NCBI GenBank assembly: GCA_018712825.1 | Contig: DVGG01000046.1 | Coordinates: 1-64,000 of the forward strand | Direction: 5' to 3' | Source: Candidatus Faecousia excrementipullorum | GTDB lineage: Bacteria > Bacillota > Clostridia > Oscillospirales > Oscillospiraceae | Length of the DNA: 64,000 nt | Part shown: piece after piece, positions 38,377-45,040 of the stretch | Numbering within the stretch: position 1 is the first letter of the stretch | Layout of the letters: the number at the start of each line of letters is the position of its first letter | Made by a program: the position numbers and the translations under genes | The notes under the pieces: model-generated | Told to the model about the DNA's origin: nothing | Database searches by the model: none | Seen by the model: only the letters and a program-made list of their open reading frames with translations

Positions 38377-41051
38377 TGAACATCTTCGCAAAGGTGACCC
38401 TGCAGACCCTGAAGAAAAACCGGGTCCGCACCATCGTCACCATTATCGGTATCATTCTCTCCTGTGCCATGATTACCGCCGTGGCTGCCCTGGCCCAAAG
38501 CTTTTCCGGCTATATGCTGGACGTGGGAATTTACGAAAAGGGTAACTGGCACGGAGCGGCTTACAGCCTCAGCTGGAGCCAGTACGAAAACATCCGGAAG
38601 GACGAGGAGATTTCCTTTGCCACCTACGCTCAACTGATGGGCTATGCCAGGGTGGAAAGTGAGAACCCAGATAAGCCCTATCTTTATGTCATCGGCGGGG
38701 AAAAGGAGACCTTTTTTGAAAATATGCCGGTGCACCTGGTGACAGGCAGACTGCCCCAGAACTCTCAGGAAATTCTCATTCCGGAGCACCTGTACACCAA
38801 CGGCGGTGTCAGCTATCAGGTGGGGCAGACCCTCACCCTGGAGCTGGGAGACCGGATGGTGGGACAGGACACCTTGAATCAGTTCAATCCCTATATTGAC
38901 GACCAGGAAACCGGGGAGCAGGAGGAATTTGTGCCCCGCCGGACCCGCACCTTCCAGATTGTGGGCGTATATTCCCGGCCTGACTTTGAAGAATACTCTG
39001 CCCCCGGCTACACGGCCATGACGGTTGCAGACCTGGAGGAAAATGTGGGGGACAGCTACGATGTGTACTTTCGGATGAAGAAGCCCGCCCAGGTTTACGA
39101 TTATCTGAAAAATCTGGACTGCGGTTCCAGCACCAACACGGATGTGCTGCTGTACTCCGGCGTATCCAAATACAGCTCCTTCAACACCATGCTTACAGGC
39201 CTGGTGGCGGTGCTGGTGGGCCTGATTATGTTCGGCTCCGTGTCCCTGATTTACAACGCCTTTGCCATCTCCGTTTCGGAGCGCACCCGGCAGTTTGGCC
39301 TGCTGTCCTCTGTAGGCGCAACCCGGCGGCAGATTGGTAGAATGGTTCTGATGGAAGCCCTGTTTGTCAGTATGGTGGGCATCCCTCTGGGTGTACTGGC
39401 AGGCTTGGGGGGCATTGGGATAACCCTTCGGATTGTGTCCGATATGATGATACGGCTTACTATGATTCCCGTACCGCTTCGGCTCCGGATTTCCCCCTAT
39501 GTGGTGGGAGCCGCAGTAGTGCTGAGCCTGATTACAGTGCTGCTGTCCGCCTGGATTCCCTCTGTCCGTGCCAAGCGGGTATCGGCCATTGAGGCCATCC
39601 GCCAGAGCCGGGATGTGCGGGGCAAGAGCCGCCCGGTAAAGACCGGCTGGCTCCAATACCGGCTCTTTGGCCTTCCTGGCGTACTGGGAAAGAAATACTA
39701 CAAAAACAGCAAGCGGAAATACCGTGCCACCATTGTAAGCCTTTTTATGAGCATTGTGCTCTTCGTCTCTGTTTGCTCCTATACCGGGTATCTCATGGAG
39801 CTGGCTACCACCTATCGGAATGAAAGTAAGTACGATATTTCTTTCTCTTATAAGGAGGATCAGTACACCCGCCAGGAGATTATGACCTGGATTGAAAATA
39901 CCCCCTCCGTTACCCAAACCGCAATGCTCCAATCCTATGGTCACATGGCACAAATCTCCAAAGCGGACATTCCGGAGGAAACCCTGGAGTATTTTAAGCA
40001 GGCTATGGACATCCAGGGAGACACGGTGGAAATGAGCTGCAATGTGTGGTTTGTGGATGACGAAAGTTTTCGGCAGCTGCTGCAGGCCAATGGGTTGGAG
40101 GAATCGATGTTCTTTGATTCCCAGAATCCGCTGGGCGTCAGCGTTTCCGCCACAAGATTTTTTGATTACCAACAGGAAAAATACATCCAGCTGGACTATT
40201 TGAAAAATGAACAAAGCGAATTTACCATCAGTTTCCCTGTTTATCTGGAGGGCTACGAAGAAGACGGAACGGAATGGGACGAGAACGGCAACGAATGGCA
40301 TTTGTATAAAAACCTCAATGACCCGGAGGATGTGAAGAAACTATCCCGGGAAGAAGCTTACCAGCAGATACCTTTGCAGATTGGTGCCAATATAGAGAAT
40401 CTGCCCTACTATATCAGCAATTCTACCTATGGTTCCCAGGTTATTTACCCCCTGAGCCTGCGGGATGCGGTGTTCCCCACCTGGAAACAAGCCATCGGGG
40501 ACTGGGAATATGATTACTATATCCTTTCTCAGGACCATAGAGAAAGTTATGAGACTCTGCGGGAAACCCTGGCCCAGGCGGGCATCCTCACCACGAATCT
40601 TGACGATGCCGCCGCCAGCAACGAAAGCCAGCGGGCGCTGGTGACCATTGTGCAGATTTTTACCTACGGCTTCGTGGTGCTCATCTCCCTGATTGCCGCT
40701 GCCAATGTGTTCAATACCATTTCCACCAATATCCATCTGCGCCGCCGGGACTTTGCCATGCTCAAGTCTGTGGGTATGCCCCGGAAGGACTTTAACAGGA
40801 TGATGAACTATGAGTGCATTCTCTACGGCACCCGGGCCCTGCTGCTGGGACTGCCGGTGTCCTGCGTCGTCACCTGGCTGACCTGGGGCTCCATATCCTA
40901 CGGGATGGAAACGGATTTCCGCCTGCCCTGGGAGGCTATGGGTATTGCGGTGCTGGGGGTTTTCCTGGTGGTGGGTATCTCCATGATCTATGCCATGCGA
41001 AAGATTCACAAGGATAACCCCATTGACGCGCTGAAAAACGAAAATCTGTAA
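38376..41051 (+). CDS. FtsX-family ABC transporter permease
   Basis: 891-aa permease with two FtsX/MacB-like units. It has an N-terminal helix (about residues 17-40), an extracytoplasmic domain to about 270, and three helices (about 275-400, LVAVLVGLIMFGSVSLIYNAF and following). A second N-terminal-like helix lies near 450 and a second outer domain to about 760. Three final helices end in VVGISMIYAMRKIHKDNPIDAL. Partner of the preceding ATPase. The class covers mechanotransmission, peptide detoxification and lipoprotein export; which applies here is not readable, but the upstream two-component system favours stress or peptide response. Confidence 0.9.
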   Translation: MNIFAKVTLQTLKKNRVRTIVTIIGIILSCAMITAVAALAQSFSGYMLDVGIYEKGNWHGAAYSLSWSQYENIRKDEEISFATYAQLMGYARVESENPDKPYLYVIGGEKETFFENMPVHLVTGRLPQNSQEILIPEHLYTNGGVSYQVGQTLTLELGDRMVGQDTLNQFNPYIDDQETGEQEEFVPRRTRTFQIVGVYSRPDFEEYSAPGYTAMTVADLEENVGDSYDVYFRMKKPAQVYDYLKNLDCGSSTNTDVLLYSGVSKYSSFNTMLTGLVAVLVGLIMFGSVSLIYNAFAISVSERTRQFGLLSSVGATRRQIGRMVLMEALFVSMVGIPLGVLAGLGGIGITLRIVSDMMIRLTMIPVPLRLRISPYVVGAAVVLSLITVLLSAWIPSVRAKRVSAIEAIRQSRDVRGKSRPVKTGWLQYRLFGLPGVLGKKYYKNSKRKYRATIVSLFMSIVLFVSVCSYTGYLMELATTYRNESKYDISFSYKEDQYTRQEIMTWIENTPSVTQTAMLQSYGHMAQISKADIPEETLEYFKQAMDIQGDTVEMSCNVWFVDDESFRQLLQANGLEESMFFDSQNPLGVSVSATRFFDYQQEKYIQLDYLKNEQSEFTISFPVYLEGYEEDGTEWDENGNEWHLYKNLNDPEDVKKLSREEAYQQIPLQIGANIENLPYYISNSTYGSQVIYPLSLRDAVFPTWKQAIGDWEYDYYILSQDHRESYETLRETLAQAGILTTNLDDAAASNESQRALVTIVQIFTYGFVVLISLIAAANVFNTISTNIHLRRRDFAMLKSVGMPRKDFNRMMNYECILYGTRALLLGLPVSCVVTWLTWGSISYGMETDFRLPWEAMGIAVLGVFLVVGISMIYAMRKIHKDNPIDALKNENL

Positions 41052-41061
41052 TGATAATCAA

Positions 41062-41087
41062 ATGGTTCCCGGGAAACCGGGAACCAT
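41062..41087 (+). repeat. GAAA-loop hairpin before the C39-like gene
   Basis: 11-bp perfect stem ATGGTTCCCGG / CCGGGAACCAT with a GAAA tetraloop, between the permease stop and the start at 41105. There is no T-tract, so it is more likely an mRNA stability or translation-control element than a terminator. Confidence 0.6.
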
Positions 41088-41104
41088 ACCATTGGGTGAT
41101 AACC

Positions 41105-41905
41105 ATGAAAAGAATTATCCTTTTGCTTTTTGCAATTCTGTGCCTGGCTCTGGTGGTCTGGAGTAGGTTCGGCGATGACCTGGAAGATGCCATTGCCGTC
41201 TTTTCCCAGTCCGCACAACCATCGGAAACCGTAGACCCGGATTCTGCTGCTGTGCAGACGGTTCAGGCCTTTGCCCGGGAACAGGGCCTGACTCTGGGGG
41301 ATTGGCCGGAGGATTTGCTGGTGCTGCTGGATAAGAACCCGGAGACGGAGGAATTCGTCCTCCAGTACCCCCTGAAAAAGGATAGCCGCCCCACCTATGA
41401 TCTGAGTGATTGTCTGAACAGCACCCAGATGCCGCTGCTGCTTCAGTGGGATGAGCGGTGGGGCTATGGGGAGTACGCCGGGGAGCTGATGGGCATTTCC
41501 GGCTGCGGCCCCACTTGCCTCTCCATGGTCTGTATACAGCTTTTGCAGGATGCCTCCTACACACCTCAATATGTGGCGGCTTTTGCGGAAGAAAACGGTT
41601 ATGCCGTGAAGGGAAACGGAAGCGCCTGGGCCCTCATTTCCGAAGGCGGCGAAAAGCTGGGGCTGGATGTGACAGAGATTCCTCTGGATGAAGGACGGAT
41701 TATCCGGAATCTGGAAGTGGGCAACCCCATCATCTGTGTCATGGGCCCCGGGGACTTTACCACCTCCGGTCACTTCATTGTATTGACGCAATACGCCGAT
41801 GGCTATGTAAAGGTCAACGATCCCAACAGTCCCATAAGGTCCCAAAAGCAATGGAAGCTGACGGATATTATGCCCCAGATGAACAATCTTTGGGTCTGCC
41901 GCTGA
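41105..41905 (+). CDS. Membrane-anchored C39-like cysteine peptidase
   Basis: 266-aa protein. The N-terminal hydrophobic segment (residues 4-20) is a signal anchor. The C39-like (Peptidase_C39_2) domain spans about 115-266, with Cys in GISGCGPTCLSM, His in TSGHFIVLTQ and Asp/Asn in VKVNDPNSP, so the catalytic triad looks complete. The active domain would face outside. ATG 41105 was preferred to ATG 41051, which overlaps the permease stop and would place the hairpin inside the coding region and put residues ahead of the signal anchor. The substrate is unknown; it follows the FtsX permease. The gene lost its terminator to the insertion sequence downstream. Confidence 0.82.
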   Translation: MKRIILLLFAILCLALVVWSRFGDDLEDAIAVFSQSAQPSETVDPDSAAVQTVQAFAREQGLTLGDWPEDLLVLLDKNPETEEFVLQYPLKKDSRPTYDLSDCLNSTQMPLLLQWDERWGYGEYAGELMGISGCGPTCLSMVCIQLLQDASYTPQYVAAFAEENGYAVKGNGSAWALISEGGEKLGLDVTEIPLDEGRIIRNLEVGNPIICVMGPGDFTTSGHFIVLTQYADGYVKVNDPNSPIRSQKQWKLTDIMPQMNNLWVCR

Positions 41906-41918
41906 AGCAATGCCAGAA

Positions 41919-41936
41919 AAACTTTGCCCCCTCAGG
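41919..41936. terminator. Left arm of a bidirectional terminator split by the insertion sequence
   Basis: AAACTTTGCCCCCTCAGG, 13 bp after the C39-like stop. Its exact reverse complement is at 43751-43768. With the insertion and one target copy removed, the two arms form an 18-bp stem with a GATT loop and A/T tracts on both sides, an ideal shared terminator for two convergent genes. Confidence 0.85.
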
Positions 41937-41939
41937 GAT
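41937..41939. repeat. Left target-site duplication (GAT)
   Basis: Three-base GAT directly before the TG end of the element, matched by GAT at 43747-43749. Three bp is the usual duplication of IS150-group elements. Confidence 0.8.
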
Positions 41940-41947
41940 TGATATGC

Positions 41948-41995
41948 TACCCCCATAAGAGACAGTGAAAAAGAAAACTGTTTCTTATGGGGGTA
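41948..41995 (+). promoter_or_regulatory. 19-bp hairpin hiding the orfA ribosome site
   Basis: Arms 41948-41966 (TACCCCCATAAGA then gACAGT) and 41977-41995 pair over 19 bp (one G-U) around a 10-nt A-rich loop. The 3' arm contains the GGGGG Shine-Dalgarno-like run 7 bp before ATG 42001. The 5' arm lies in the inverted repeat, so only transcripts entering from outside can form it. Confidence 0.75.
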
Positions 41996-42000
41996 TTTCT

Positions 42001-42681
42001 ATGTCAAAGAGGAAAAAGATTCATGTAGAAGAAAAGATAAGAATTGCACGAGCCTGTAGCAGCGGGGAAATAAGCATCTGTGCTGCAGCTGCACAAATTG
42101 GGGTAGATCATCACACAGTTGGAGATTGGGTTCGGAAGTATCAAACGGAAGGTGTGGAGGAATTTCTGCCCCGCAATACAAATAAGCGATATGACCCTGC
42201 GCTTAAGGAAGGAGCTGTAAAAGACTACCTATCCGGAAAAGGAAGTATCAGAGAGATTTGCAAAATATACAAGATCCGGTCAACTTATCAGCTCAGAGCT
42301 TGGATTAAGGTGTATAATGGTCATAAAGACTTCAAGAAACAGACAGGAGGAAGCCGTATGACCAAAGGAAGAGAAACTACCCAAACTGAGAGGATCGCAG
42401 TAGCAAAGGCATGTATTGCCAACGGCAAGAACTACGGAGAGGTTGCAATCGCGTACAATGTCAGCTATCAGCAGGCTCGCAGCTGGACGCTCAAGTACAT
42501 AGAAGGCGGTGAAAGTGCTCTGGAAGACCGGCGGGGCCAGCGAAAGAAGGATCAGCAGCCCCGGACAGAACAGGAGCAGGCACAGATCGAGATTGAGCAA
42601 CTCAAGCATAAGCTGAAGATGGTGGAAATGGAGAATCACCTACTAAAAAAATTGGAGGAGATAGAAAGGAGGCGGGGCTAA
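42001..42681 (+). CDS. IS3-family transposase OrfA
   Basis: 226-aa DNA-binding half of the transposase, long for OrfA. It contains three successive helix-turn-helix segments: about residues 8-55 (EKIRIARACSSGEISICAAA, QIGVDHHTVGDWVRKY), 62-108 (VKDYLSGKGSIREICKIYKI) and 128-175 (RIAVAKACIANGKNYGEVAI, YNVSYQQARSWTLKY). A leucine-zipper-like coiled coil follows (about 190-222). ATG 42001 is used; GTG 41965 is in frame but falls in the hairpin. The end holds the A7 slippery run (42645-42651). Confidence 0.88.
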   Translation: MSKRKKIHVEEKIRIARACSSGEISICAAAAQIGVDHHTVGDWVRKYQTEGVEEFLPRNTNKRYDPALKEGAVKDYLSGKGSIREICKIYKIRSTYQLRAWIKVYNGHKDFKKQTGGSRMTKGRETTQTERIAVAKACIANGKNYGEVAIAYNVSYQQARSWTLKYIEGGESALEDRRGQRKKDQQPRTEQEQAQIEIEQLKHKLKMVEMENHLLKKLEEIERRRG

Positions 42682-43580
42682 GCCAGGTTCGGCAATCTCA
42701 TATCTACCTGGCAATAAAAGAATGTAACGAGGAATACGGAGACCCTATTGAAGCATCCTGTGAACGATTGGGTGTGTCCAGAGCAGCCTATTATCGTTGG
42801 CTCAGCGGTAAAAAGTGCGCCAGAGAACTGGAAAACGAGAAGATTGCGGAGATTATGGAGCAAATCCATACCGATAATCCTGATAAAGGTTACCGCCGTA
42901 TTAAGGACGATCTGGCCCATGACCACAATCTAAATGTGAACGAGAAGCGAGTGCTTCGTATTTGCCGGAGCTTAGATATTAAATCTACCATTAAGTACAA
43001 GAATAACGGCTGTACACGACAGGCAGCGAATCCGCAGCATATAGCAAAAAACTGGCTGAACCGACAGTTCCACGCAAGCATGCCAAACGAAAAATGGCTG
43101 ACCGATGTAACAGAGTTTAAGTGGTACGAAGGACCTACTGTGCACAAGCTGTACCTCAGCGCAATCCTTGATCTATACGACCGCAGAATTGTTGCCTTTG
43201 TCATTCGAGACCGGAATGACAATCCTCTTGTATTTGATACCTTGGATGCCGCTATTAAGGCCAATCCGAACGCACACCCCTTATTCCATAGCGACAGAGG
43301 TTTTCAATACACCAACCGAGTATTCTACAACAAGCTAAAGAAAGCAAAAATGAAGCAGAGTATGTCCAGAGTGGCAAAGTGCATTGATAACGGTCCAATG
43401 GAAGGATTCTGGGGAATTCTCAAAAGAGAGAGGTACTACTGCAGACGGTTTACAAGTCGTGAGGAGCTTGTGCAGATGATTGAGAACTACATAACCTATT
43501 ACAACAACCGCCGAGTACAACGCAACCTGGGTGTACTGACGCCGATGGAGAAGCACGAGCGCTATCTCTTAGCGGCATAA
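42651..43580 (+). CDS. IS3-family transposase OrfB (integrase), expressed by -1 frameshift
   Basis: Frame open from the A7 run: reading CTA AAA AAA, a -1 slip joins OrfA to OrfB at 42651. OrfB has an HTH_21-like N-terminus (KGYRRIKDDL) and an rve integrase core. The DDE residues are D in WLTDVTEF, D in HSDRGFQYT and E in MEGFWGILKRE with the normal spacing. No good independent start exists; the nearest is TTG 42768. The product is the OrfAB fusion transposase of about 535 residues. Confidence 0.88.
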   Translation: MGGDRKEAGLSQVRQSHIYLAIKECNEEYGDPIEASCERLGVSRAAYYRWLSGKKCARELENEKIAEIMEQIHTDNPDKGYRRIKDDLAHDHNLNVNEKRVLRICRSLDIKSTIKYKNNGCTRQAANPQHIAKNWLNRQFHASMPNEKWLTDVTEFKWYEGPTVHKLYLSAILDLYDRRIVAFVIRDRNDNPLVFDTLDAAIKANPNAHPLFHSDRGFQYTNRVFYNKLKKAKMKQSMSRVAKCIDNGPMEGFWGILKRERYYCRRFTSREELVQMIENYITYYNNRRVQRNLGVLTPMEKHERYLLAA

Positions 43581-43746
43581 TAAAGCCTCAGAAAATGGCT
43601 GGACGATACGTCCTGACATTTCCTGAGGTTCCCACGGCACCGCAGTGCCGTGCATCCTAAAAAAGACTTCCGACAACCAAACCGGCTGCCGGAAGTACAG
43701 AAATTCTTTATTTTATTTCACTGTCCACTTGACGGGGAGCAGTTCA
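43581..43746. other. Non-coding right end of the insertion sequence
   Basis: No gene. It contains an 8-bp CACGGCAC-CGCA-GTGCCGTG hairpin (43633-43652), a minus-strand terminator (43659-43696) and the right inverted repeat (about 43711-43746). Confidence 0.7.
43659..43696 (-). terminator. Minus-strand terminator inside the insertion sequence
   Basis: On the minus strand ACTTCCG...CGGAAGT (43696-43690 and 43672-43666) is followed by CTTTTTT. It would stop transcription entering the element from the glycosyltransferase side. Confidence 0.7.
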
Positions 43747-43749
43747 GAT
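43747..43749. repeat. Right target-site duplication (GAT)
   Basis: GAT directly after the CA end of the element, matching 41937-41939. Confidence 0.8.
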
Positions 43750-43750
43750 T

Positions 43751-43768
43751 CCTGAGGGGGCAAAGTTT
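43751..43768. terminator. Right arm of the split bidirectional terminator
   Basis: CCTGAGGGGGCAAAGTTT, exact reverse complement of 41919-41936, 10 bp beyond the glycosyltransferase stop. It is separated from its partner by the insertion sequence, so it no longer forms a short hairpin. Confidence 0.85.
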
Positions 43769-43777
43769 GTTGAAACA

Positions 43778-45040
43778 TTATTTGGAGAAGGGCAGACTGC
43801 TGAGGGCTTCCATCAGCTTGGCATTCAGGTGAATGCAGTTGTCCACCGGCTTGTACCGCTTGGGATAAAAGCCGCTTTTGTACCGGTCGATGACCACATC
43901 GTAGCGCTTGAGGGCGTTATCCACCGCATCCTCCCAGGACAGATACAGCTCCCGGCTGGCAGCTTCTCCGATGGTGCGAAGATAGTCCTCCTTGCCATGC
44001 AGCTTCATAAGGCAGGCCGCCAGACTCTGGGCGTTTTCCTCCACCTGGAAGCAGTTGCGGTTGTGGGTGGTGCCGTCGGAGGCACAGCTTCCGGCGATGA
44101 GGACAGAGGGCAGGCTGCTGGCAGCTGCTTCCCGTACCACAAGACCGTTGGTATCGTAGGTAGAGGGGAACAGGAAGAGATTTGCCCGGGCGTACCAGCC
44201 CCGCAGAGCCTCCCGGTCCCGGATAGCGCCGGTGAAAATACAGGCATCCTCCAGACCCAGCTGGCGGGCATAGCTTTGAATCTCCGGCATATCGCTGCCG
44301 TCTCCCACAAACACCATGCGGTAGGGAAGCTTTTTGGCTTTCAGGGCAGCCAGGGCGTCCAGAATCAGCCGGATACCCTTGTACCAGCGCATACGCCCCA
44401 CAAACAGGTAAATGGGAACACCCTCCGGCAAATCGTATCCATCCGTATAGGCCGCAACCTGCTCCGGGGAAAGGCGGCTCCGGGGGACATCCACCCCGTT
44501 GGGCATAACGATGTAATCTCCTTCATAGCCTAAGGAACGGAGGCTTTGGGCCGTTCCTTCGCTGACAATCCACACTTCATCGCAGGCGTTGATATTTTCC
44601 GCCAGAATCTTCTTGCAGCTGTTTTGCAGATGCACAGACCTGATGGCTCTGGCCAGATCAATTTCAAACCGGGTATGATAAGTAAGAATCAAAGGTGCAT
44701 TTACAATATTCCGCAAAGCCCTTCCCATAAAGTTGGAGGCAAAGGGACAGTGACTGTGGAGCACCGCCACATCCACACTTTCCAGCCGCTTTGCAACAGA
44801 GGGGGAAAAGGGGATTCCGGACATATATCCAAACCCTTTGCGGGTATCCATACTGGGATAGCGAAGAATCGGATAAGGAAATGGAGAATCCTCCGCTTCC
44901 GGCAGGGCTGGGGTAACCACCACCGGGGAGAAGCCCCGGGCGTGTAGAATATTGCCATAGTTTACCACGGCATTTGCAACGCCATCAATCTGGGGGGGGA
45001 AGGAATCGTTCAGTAATCCAATAATCTGCTTTTCCTGCAT
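43778..45040 (-). CDS. GT4-family glycosyltransferase
   Basis: 420-aa GT-B glycosyltransferase. N-terminal donor-independent domain starts GLLNDSFPPQIDGVANAVVNY, the usual GT4 opening, and has HSHCPFASNFMG and LTYHTRFEIDL. The C-terminal domain (from about 205) has LFVGRMRWYKGIRLILDAL, FVGDGSDMPE, and LFLFPSTYDTNGLVVREAAA with the E-x7-E pattern. Closest known types are diacylglycerol glucosyl- or mannosyltransferases making membrane glycolipids; substrate is inferred. It stands alone, and its terminator was split by the insertion sequence. Confidence 0.88.
   Translation of the reverse strand: MQEKQIIGLLNDSFPPQIDGVANAVVNYGNILHARGFSPVVVTPALPEAEDSPFPYPILRYPSMDTRKGFGYMSGIPFSPSVAKRLESVDVAVLHSHCPFASNFMGRALRNIVNAPLILTYHTRFEIDLARAIRSVHLQNSCKKILAENINACDEVWIVSEGTAQSLRSLGYEGDYIVMPNGVDVPRSRLSPEQVAAYTDGYDLPEGVPIYLFVGRMRWYKGIRLILDALAALKAKKLPYRMVFVGDGSDMPEIQSYARQLGLEDACIFTGAIRDREALRGWYARANLFLFPSTYDTNGLVVREAAASSLPSVLIAGSCASDGTTHNRNCFQVEENAQSLAACLMKLHGKEDYLRTIGEAASRELYLSWEDAVDNALKRYDVVIDRYKSGFYPKRYKPVDNCIHLNAKLMEALSSLPFSK

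Follow-up and report, generated by a model that had tools for sequence, protein, structure and literature searches.

Insertion of IS3-family elements at the axis of REP palindromes with a 3-bp duplication and the targeting of terminator hairpins by IS1272 are both already in print. In the consulted part of PMC1525189, ISPsy8, a member of the IS3 family, enters a predicted REP hairpin at its axis of symmetry and generates a 3-bp duplication, and IS1397 and ISKpn1 are cited alongside it as REP-targeting elements of the same family. IS1272 and TnSha1 of the IS1182 family are described in the consulted parts of PMC4923244 and PMC5678879 as targeting hairpins without a shared sequence, and PMC4923244 also confirmed its hairpins A to E as transcriptional terminators. 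IS1447, an IS3-family element of Firmicutes, produces duplications of 3–4 bp according to the consulted part of PMC6211511.

A full-text search limited to the open-access literature revealed no report of IS3-family elements targeting terminator loops. IS1630, which belongs to another family (IS30), reportedly inserts at inverted repeats resembling terminators, with long duplications of variable length.

Here, an IS3-family element located between two convergent genes was analyzed. A hairpin split by the element, a hairpin at the orthologous site of a genome lacking it and a statistical preference for hairpins across its relatives were observed. We estimate at about 85% the probability that a preference of the transposase for the axis of strong inverted repeats, in most cases terminators at gene ends, led the element into the loop of a bidirectional terminator already present at the site.

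The insertion sequence and the split hairpin in the window

The window, namely the whole analyzed stretch of 64,000 nucleotides from Candidatus Faecousia excrementipullorum, contains the following features at the locus:

41051–41905, plus strand: C39-like peptidase gene (Pfam PF13529, E 1.2e-14), upstream of the hairpin
41919–41936, unstranded: left arm of the split putative terminator hairpin, exact reverse complement of 43751–43768
41937–41939, unstranded: GAT target-site duplication, left copy, in the original loop
41940–43746, plus strand: IS3-family insertion sequence, 1807 bp, with TG..CA ends
41948–41995, plus strand: left-end hairpin, formed by the left inverted repeat and an inverted copy of it located before OrfA
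42001–42681, plus strand: OrfA from its probable start ATG 42001 (the mechanically called ORF starts at GTG 41965)
42639–43580, plus strand: OrfB, in the −1 frame with respect to OrfA, with a DDE integrase core (Pfam rve, E 2.7e-20)
43666–43696, minus strand: terminator-like hairpin in the right end of the element, on the same strand as the incoming glycosyltransferase transcript
43747–43749, unstranded: GAT target-site duplication, right copy
43751–43768, unstranded: right arm of the split putative terminator hairpin, exact reverse complement of 41919–41936
43778–45040, minus strand: convergent glycosyltransferase gene (Pfam PF00534, E 2.8e-24)

The termini of the element are TG (41940–41941) and CA (43745–43746). 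They are independently supported, since many matches from the same genus begin or stop at identical bases (query positions 4 and 1810). OrfB scored 271 bits against the NCBIfam model NF033516 (IS3 family transposase; cut-off 160), and this DDE OrfB, the imperfect inverted repeats with TG...CA ends and the short duplication place the element in the IS3 family. Several helix-turn-helix domains (Pfam HTH_28, HTH_Tnp_1 and HTH_23) were found in OrfA (41965–42681). The two frames differ by −1, and the A7 run at 42645–42651 in their overlap is likely a −1 frameshift site. Judging by these features, the element looks intact. The OrfB tree (101 rows), which included few reference subgroups and had long branches, joined E. 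coli IS150, ISKpn8, Brevibacillus and the clostridial clade with a support of 95/79. Note that the genome of the window carries one full copy and one degenerate fragment of the element; therefore, relatives were used to test its target preference.

A preliminary description of this DNA had placed the element, with its ends TG at 41940 and CA at 43746, inside a 3-bp GAT duplication and between two exactly complementary 18-bp arms, and it had claimed that removal of the element and one GAT restores an 18-bp stem with a GATT loop between convergent C39-like peptidase and glycosyltransferase genes. A script confirmed the complementarity of the left arm (AAACTTTGCCCCCTCAGG) to 43751–43768, the ends and the duplication were found in the sequence as described, and the Pfam matches of both genes agree. 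Folding of the joined flanks (100 nt, plus strand) gave this stem and loop with an energy of −51.5 kcal/mol. The hairpin begins 13 nt from the stop codon of the peptidase gene and lies 9 nt from that of the glycosyltransferase gene. This G+C-rich stem-loop near both stops, with A- and T-rich outer ends, has the form of an intrinsic terminator. The junction score, defined as the best ungapped stem that encloses the insertion junction in its loop, is 46 for this site; as a measure of chance, 6 of 12,351 positions sampled elsewhere in the window reach a score of at least 35.

The element is absent from the corresponding site of the congeneric genome G134, where the glycosyltransferase ortholog is 95% identical. 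This empty site, bounded by the glycosyltransferase gene and by the 3′ end of the same upstream gene, reads CCGCCCTCTCAGG-GATTT-CCTGAGAGGGCGG. It forms a hairpin with a 13-bp stem and a loop homologous to that of the window, and stem bases are changed on both arms. The expectation that an orthologous empty site would read as a hairpin was thus borne out, though the stem differs from that of the window. Since G134 belongs to the same genus, lacks the element and carries a hairpin at this place, sequence comparison indicates that the hairpin preceded the insertion or, at least, is kept here in the relative lacking the element.

Insertion sites of related elements

A total of 193 loci with OrfB relatives (about 26–100% identity) were collected from the host genus, family and class, named GTDB genomes (the best 80 of at least 576 confirmed stretches), viral contigs, 12 selected genomes and one Enterococcus plasmid. 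Loci for which both ends were not found (64), with a flank shorter than 40 nt (24), at duplicate sites (4) or with N (2) were removed, which left 99 non-redundant copies with both ends identified and 40 nt or more of flanking DNA on each side. A 3–4 bp duplication was found in 66 of these 99 copies, 13 of the 66 having been accepted partly for having one. For distant elements, the end-finding rule required 3 matching bases. Two copies lost by this rule, L244 and L248 (same site as L216), have 4-bp duplications and are hairpin-like.

Null distributions of the junction score were obtained by joining the left flank of one copy to the right flank of another (cross-pairing; 4290 pairs; 95th percentile 20.5, 99th percentile 26.5) and from 2600 random positions in the surrounding host DNA, coding as well as intergenic. 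The RNA duplex energy of the flanks was also considered (59 copies; medians of −24.2 kcal/mol for own flanks, −13.6 for cross-paired flanks and −15.3 for random host DNA), but its background was high and the ungapped junction score was used instead. Elements of 31–39% identity had been presumed to be negative controls, yet 10 of the 12 with a 3-bp duplication sit in hairpins; therefore, IS256 was taken as the control. It comprised 17 copies of one family in two genomes (in G670, 11 of the 15 matches; in G640, all 6), both of which also hold related IS3-family elements. The IS256 ends were set by hand from multi-copy boundaries, and an 8-bp duplication was present in 15 of the 17 copies.

A junction score of at least 24 was reached by 46 of the 66 duplication-bearing copies, against 23 of the 2600 random host positions (0.9%, drawn beyond intergenic DNA too), 138 of the 12,351 sampled window positions and 0 of the 17 IS256 copies in G670 and G640. 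The terminator-hairpin preference proposed in the preliminary description is supported by these values. By the cross-pair cut-offs, 49 of the 66 copies reached the 95th percentile and 41 the 99th. Grouped by OrfB identity to the window element, copies over the 95th percentile made up 21/26 at 60–100%, 4/5 at 50–60%, 14/23 at 40–50% and 10/12 at 30–40%. Eight more plasmid copies, serving as outgroups, were also scored, three of which have no duplication or uncertain ends. The Priestia and Brevibacillus copies (39% and 37% identity) lie in strong hairpins with scores of 37.8 and 32.0, respectively; the outgroup copies of E. coli IS150, ISKpn8 and ISEnfa3 scored 13.0, 6.0 and 9.0, below the hairpin cut-off. 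The hairpin preference spans a wide range of IS3 transposases. The compact relative L240, whose OrfA has 90 aa and one weak helix-turn-helix match, also lies in a terminator-like hairpin, so such a target can be used without the additional OrfA domains seen in the window element.

Random insertion into unstructured DNA would have spoken against the proposed preference, and such a distribution was not found; the exceptions are 17 of the 66 copies with a duplication, which did not reach the 95th percentile of the cross-paired flanks. On visual inspection, seven of these show arms that are shorter, interrupted or separated by a longer loop (L182, L202, L226, L237 and, in G698, L185, L194 and L200), three are doubtful (L066, L162, L195) and seven are without a convincing hairpin (L077, L118, L133, L166, L187, L213, L245). 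Among the copies without a duplication, only 9 of 33 reached the 95th-percentile cut-off. Their flanks often resemble halves of two different terminators, and those under the cut-off would fit recombinant or mis-assembled copies. L100 and L103, both without a duplication, share the right flank and have different left flanks, which suggests recombination or assembly chimerism. L082 is surrounded by a perfect 16-bp terminator-like hairpin, yet has no 3-bp duplication.

When the hairpin label was mapped on the tree of 101 OrfB sequences, it was unclustered (16 changes versus a shuffled mean of 15.7), so the preference cannot be assigned to one origin or branch point. The labels of outgroup loci in this tree were assigned manually, and L285 and L217 were classified as hairpins by eye, with L285 below the cut-off.

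In the 49 copies over the 95th-percentile cut-off, the loops have a median length of 6 nt. A four-base T- or A-tract lies beside the stem in 35 of the 42 targets scoring at least 26, compared with 43 of 157 equally strong hairpins in the surrounding and window DNA, a contrast that may partly reflect the location of comparison hairpins in coding DNA. According to crude ORF calls, 41 of 48 hairpin copies have, no more than 250 nt away, a gene that ends towards the site, and in 23 of these such a gene lies on both sides; the 35 left-hand stops lie at a median of 34 nt from the site. At a second site (L097 in G466), orthologs of the upstream gene were taken from 7 of the 10 other matching genomes, and 7 of 7 have a hairpin in the first 110 nt or so after the stop, with no element within the 110 nt viewed. 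Their stems differ and score 32–49, each value being the maximum over about 110 nt. For a site in G338, the flanks matched only in part, in 6 other genomes. Given the tracts, the position at gene ends and the hairpins of the L097-site orthologs, the targets are best described, from their sequence, as putative intrinsic terminators, often bidirectional.

Among the other explanations, the one that survives best, though it appears unlikely, is sequence-specific recognition of a terminator motif (A-tract, G+C-rich stem, T-tract) rather than of its structure. Tracts are indeed frequent at the targets: TTTT was found in 55 and AAAA in 7 of the 66 right flanks, and AAAA in 49 and TTTT in 9 of the 66 left flanks. 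There is also a mild preference for A as the middle base of the duplication (32/66). In addition, a GGGGCTGTCGC-like arm is common to several Lachnospiraceae and similar targets (for example, L119, L139, L147, L152 and L159), and it is perhaps a common terminator stem or repeat of that group. However, stem sequences vary from site to site, also among copies within one genome such as G466, 7 of the 42 strong targets contain no four-base tract, and the 66 duplications comprise 33 different triplets. Four copies in the single-contig genome G698 (L185, L194, L200 and L203) lie in one repeated, REP-like palindrome (AAAACCTA...TAGGTTTT) with similar surroundings.

We consider it somewhat less likely still that RNA polymerase pausing at terminators, or the hairpin of the nascent RNA, attracts the transposase. 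Targets that are mostly terminator-like and at gene ends would agree with such transcription-coupled targeting, as would the tandem-gene sites, in 9 of which the element is co-directional with the genes and in 3 opposite. But this bias is weak, orientation judged by the tracts is 18 versus 15, and no clear orientation of the element relative to the terminator emerges. A few palindromic targets lack clear tracts.

Random insertion followed by selection, with survivors remaining only in harmless DNA at gene ends, would enrich hairpins without any targeting. It could account for the location of most sites at gene ends, and the possible contribution of coding DNA to the tract contrast is in its favour. 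Nevertheless, this is improbable: the insertions are at the loop itself, with no more than 2 nt between the centres of duplication and loop in 31 of the 49 copies, and the 17 IS256 copies, which are under the same selection in two of the same genomes, include none with a score of at least 24. Finally, inverted repeats just outside the ends of an element can pass for extended termini, but the notion that the arms belong to the element or arose by insertion can practically be set aside, since they vary between sites and hairpins were found in the empty site of G134 and in all seven L097-site orthologs.

Hairpins within the elements

In the window element and its relatives, an inverted copy of the left inverted repeat is located about 40 nt inward of it. 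In the window, this copy carries GGGGG (41989–41993), which resembles a ribosome-binding site, before OrfA. The first 70 nt fold at z < −2 relative to simple shuffles in 75 of 76 distinct elements (median z −8.5). All 66 distinct elements with at least 42% identity have a ribosome-binding-site-like run in the outer arm and a start codon within 16 nt; the run is there because the outer arm pairs with CTCCC of the inverted repeat. Since chance alone would fairly often place a start codon at this distance, it is the pairing that is informative. Over the 66 elements, the left-end pairs comprise 1266 Watson–Crick, 101 G-U, 11 A-C and 87 other mismatches, and double changes were found at 9 of 15 consensus pairs (32 aligned elements). 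The hairpin is thus conserved and covarying. The excess of G-U over A-C points to selection acting on the transcript.

The left-end hairpin is also present in the Priestia and Brevibacillus elements, whereas it was not found in E. coli IS150. In the displayed elements of 34% identity, the hairpin does not use the inverted repeat. In other IS families, there are cases where a hairpin blocks transposase translation from externally initiated transcripts, and by analogy the left-end hairpin described here likely does the same. At L019 (positions 593–660; genome G119), an apparent truncated relic consists of the left-end hairpin followed by CTTTTTGTTTTC, with no transposase start, as if it might itself serve as a terminator.

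Terminator-like hairpins were found in the right end on the minus strand in 21 of 76 distinct elements (simple-shuffle mean 1.0) and on the plus strand in 13 of 76. In the left 110 nt, plus-strand hairpins of this type were found in 4 of 76, the window element included. These counts lend only partial support to the idea that the element may replace the broken terminator by its own terminator-like hairpin.

Proposed mechanism and comparison with described systems

In the preferred reading, i.e., entry into the loop of a pre-existing terminator, the transposase would integrate, with a 3-bp duplication, at the axis of inverted repeats able to extrude hairpins. It would read dyad symmetry or the extruded hairpin rather than the base sequence. 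Terminators, or hairpins presumed to terminate, would be the usual strong inverted repeats at gene ends, and gene ends would thereby act as a safe harbour. A broken terminator would admit a read-through transcript of the host, and the left-end hairpin would keep the transposase on this transcript untranslated. A broader version, which we put forward tentatively and hold to be somewhat doubtful, is that in a broad set of IS3-family elements (Clostridia and some Bacilli) the DDE transposase recognises a hairpin or cruciform, so that terminators of any sequence would form a genome-wide safe harbour. In the clade of the window element, the left inverted repeat would then double as the end bound by the transposase and as an anti-ribosome-binding-site RNA lock on read-through.

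The observations connect the targeting of REP sequences by the IS3 family with the targeting of terminators by IS1272. The way in which a DDE transposase reads the structure of its target becomes testable with simple plasmid targets. It can also be predicted that such elements may rewire transcription at operon ends and between convergent genes.

Like the REP-targeting elements ISPsy8, IS1397 and ISKpn1, the window element belongs to the IS3 family, and axis insertion with a 3-bp duplication is described for ISPsy8 in the consulted part of PMC1525189, as here. The parallel with IS1397 and ISKpn1 drawn in the preliminary description therefore holds as behaviour, but it does not extend to the kind of target. 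According to the same part of that source, these elements enter one repeated palindromic family of the host, whereas relatives of the window element enter individual, ordinary terminator-like hairpins with differing stems. Judged from the flanks of the copies alone, a repeated REP-like family was found as a target in G698 only.

E. coli IS150 resembles the window element in having 40.2% identity over OrfB residues 72–304, similar ends and a 3-bp duplication. It differs in lacking the left-end hairpin and in that 0 of its 4 distinct sites exceed the hairpin cut-off. Two of these 4 sites are just upstream of hok-family genes, the copies concerned being L285, L294 and L296, all under the cut-off.

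IS1447 has TA rather than TG ends; in the consulted part of PMC6211511, three types of its insertion in the tdk coding sequence are described and a terminator preference is not mentioned. IS1272 and TnSha1 belong to another IS family and, in the consulted parts of PMC4923244 and PMC5678879, generate no target duplication, with part of the hairpin being deleted or replaced. In contrast to IS1272, insertion of the window element kept both 18-bp arms of the hairpin and duplicated 3 bp of its loop.
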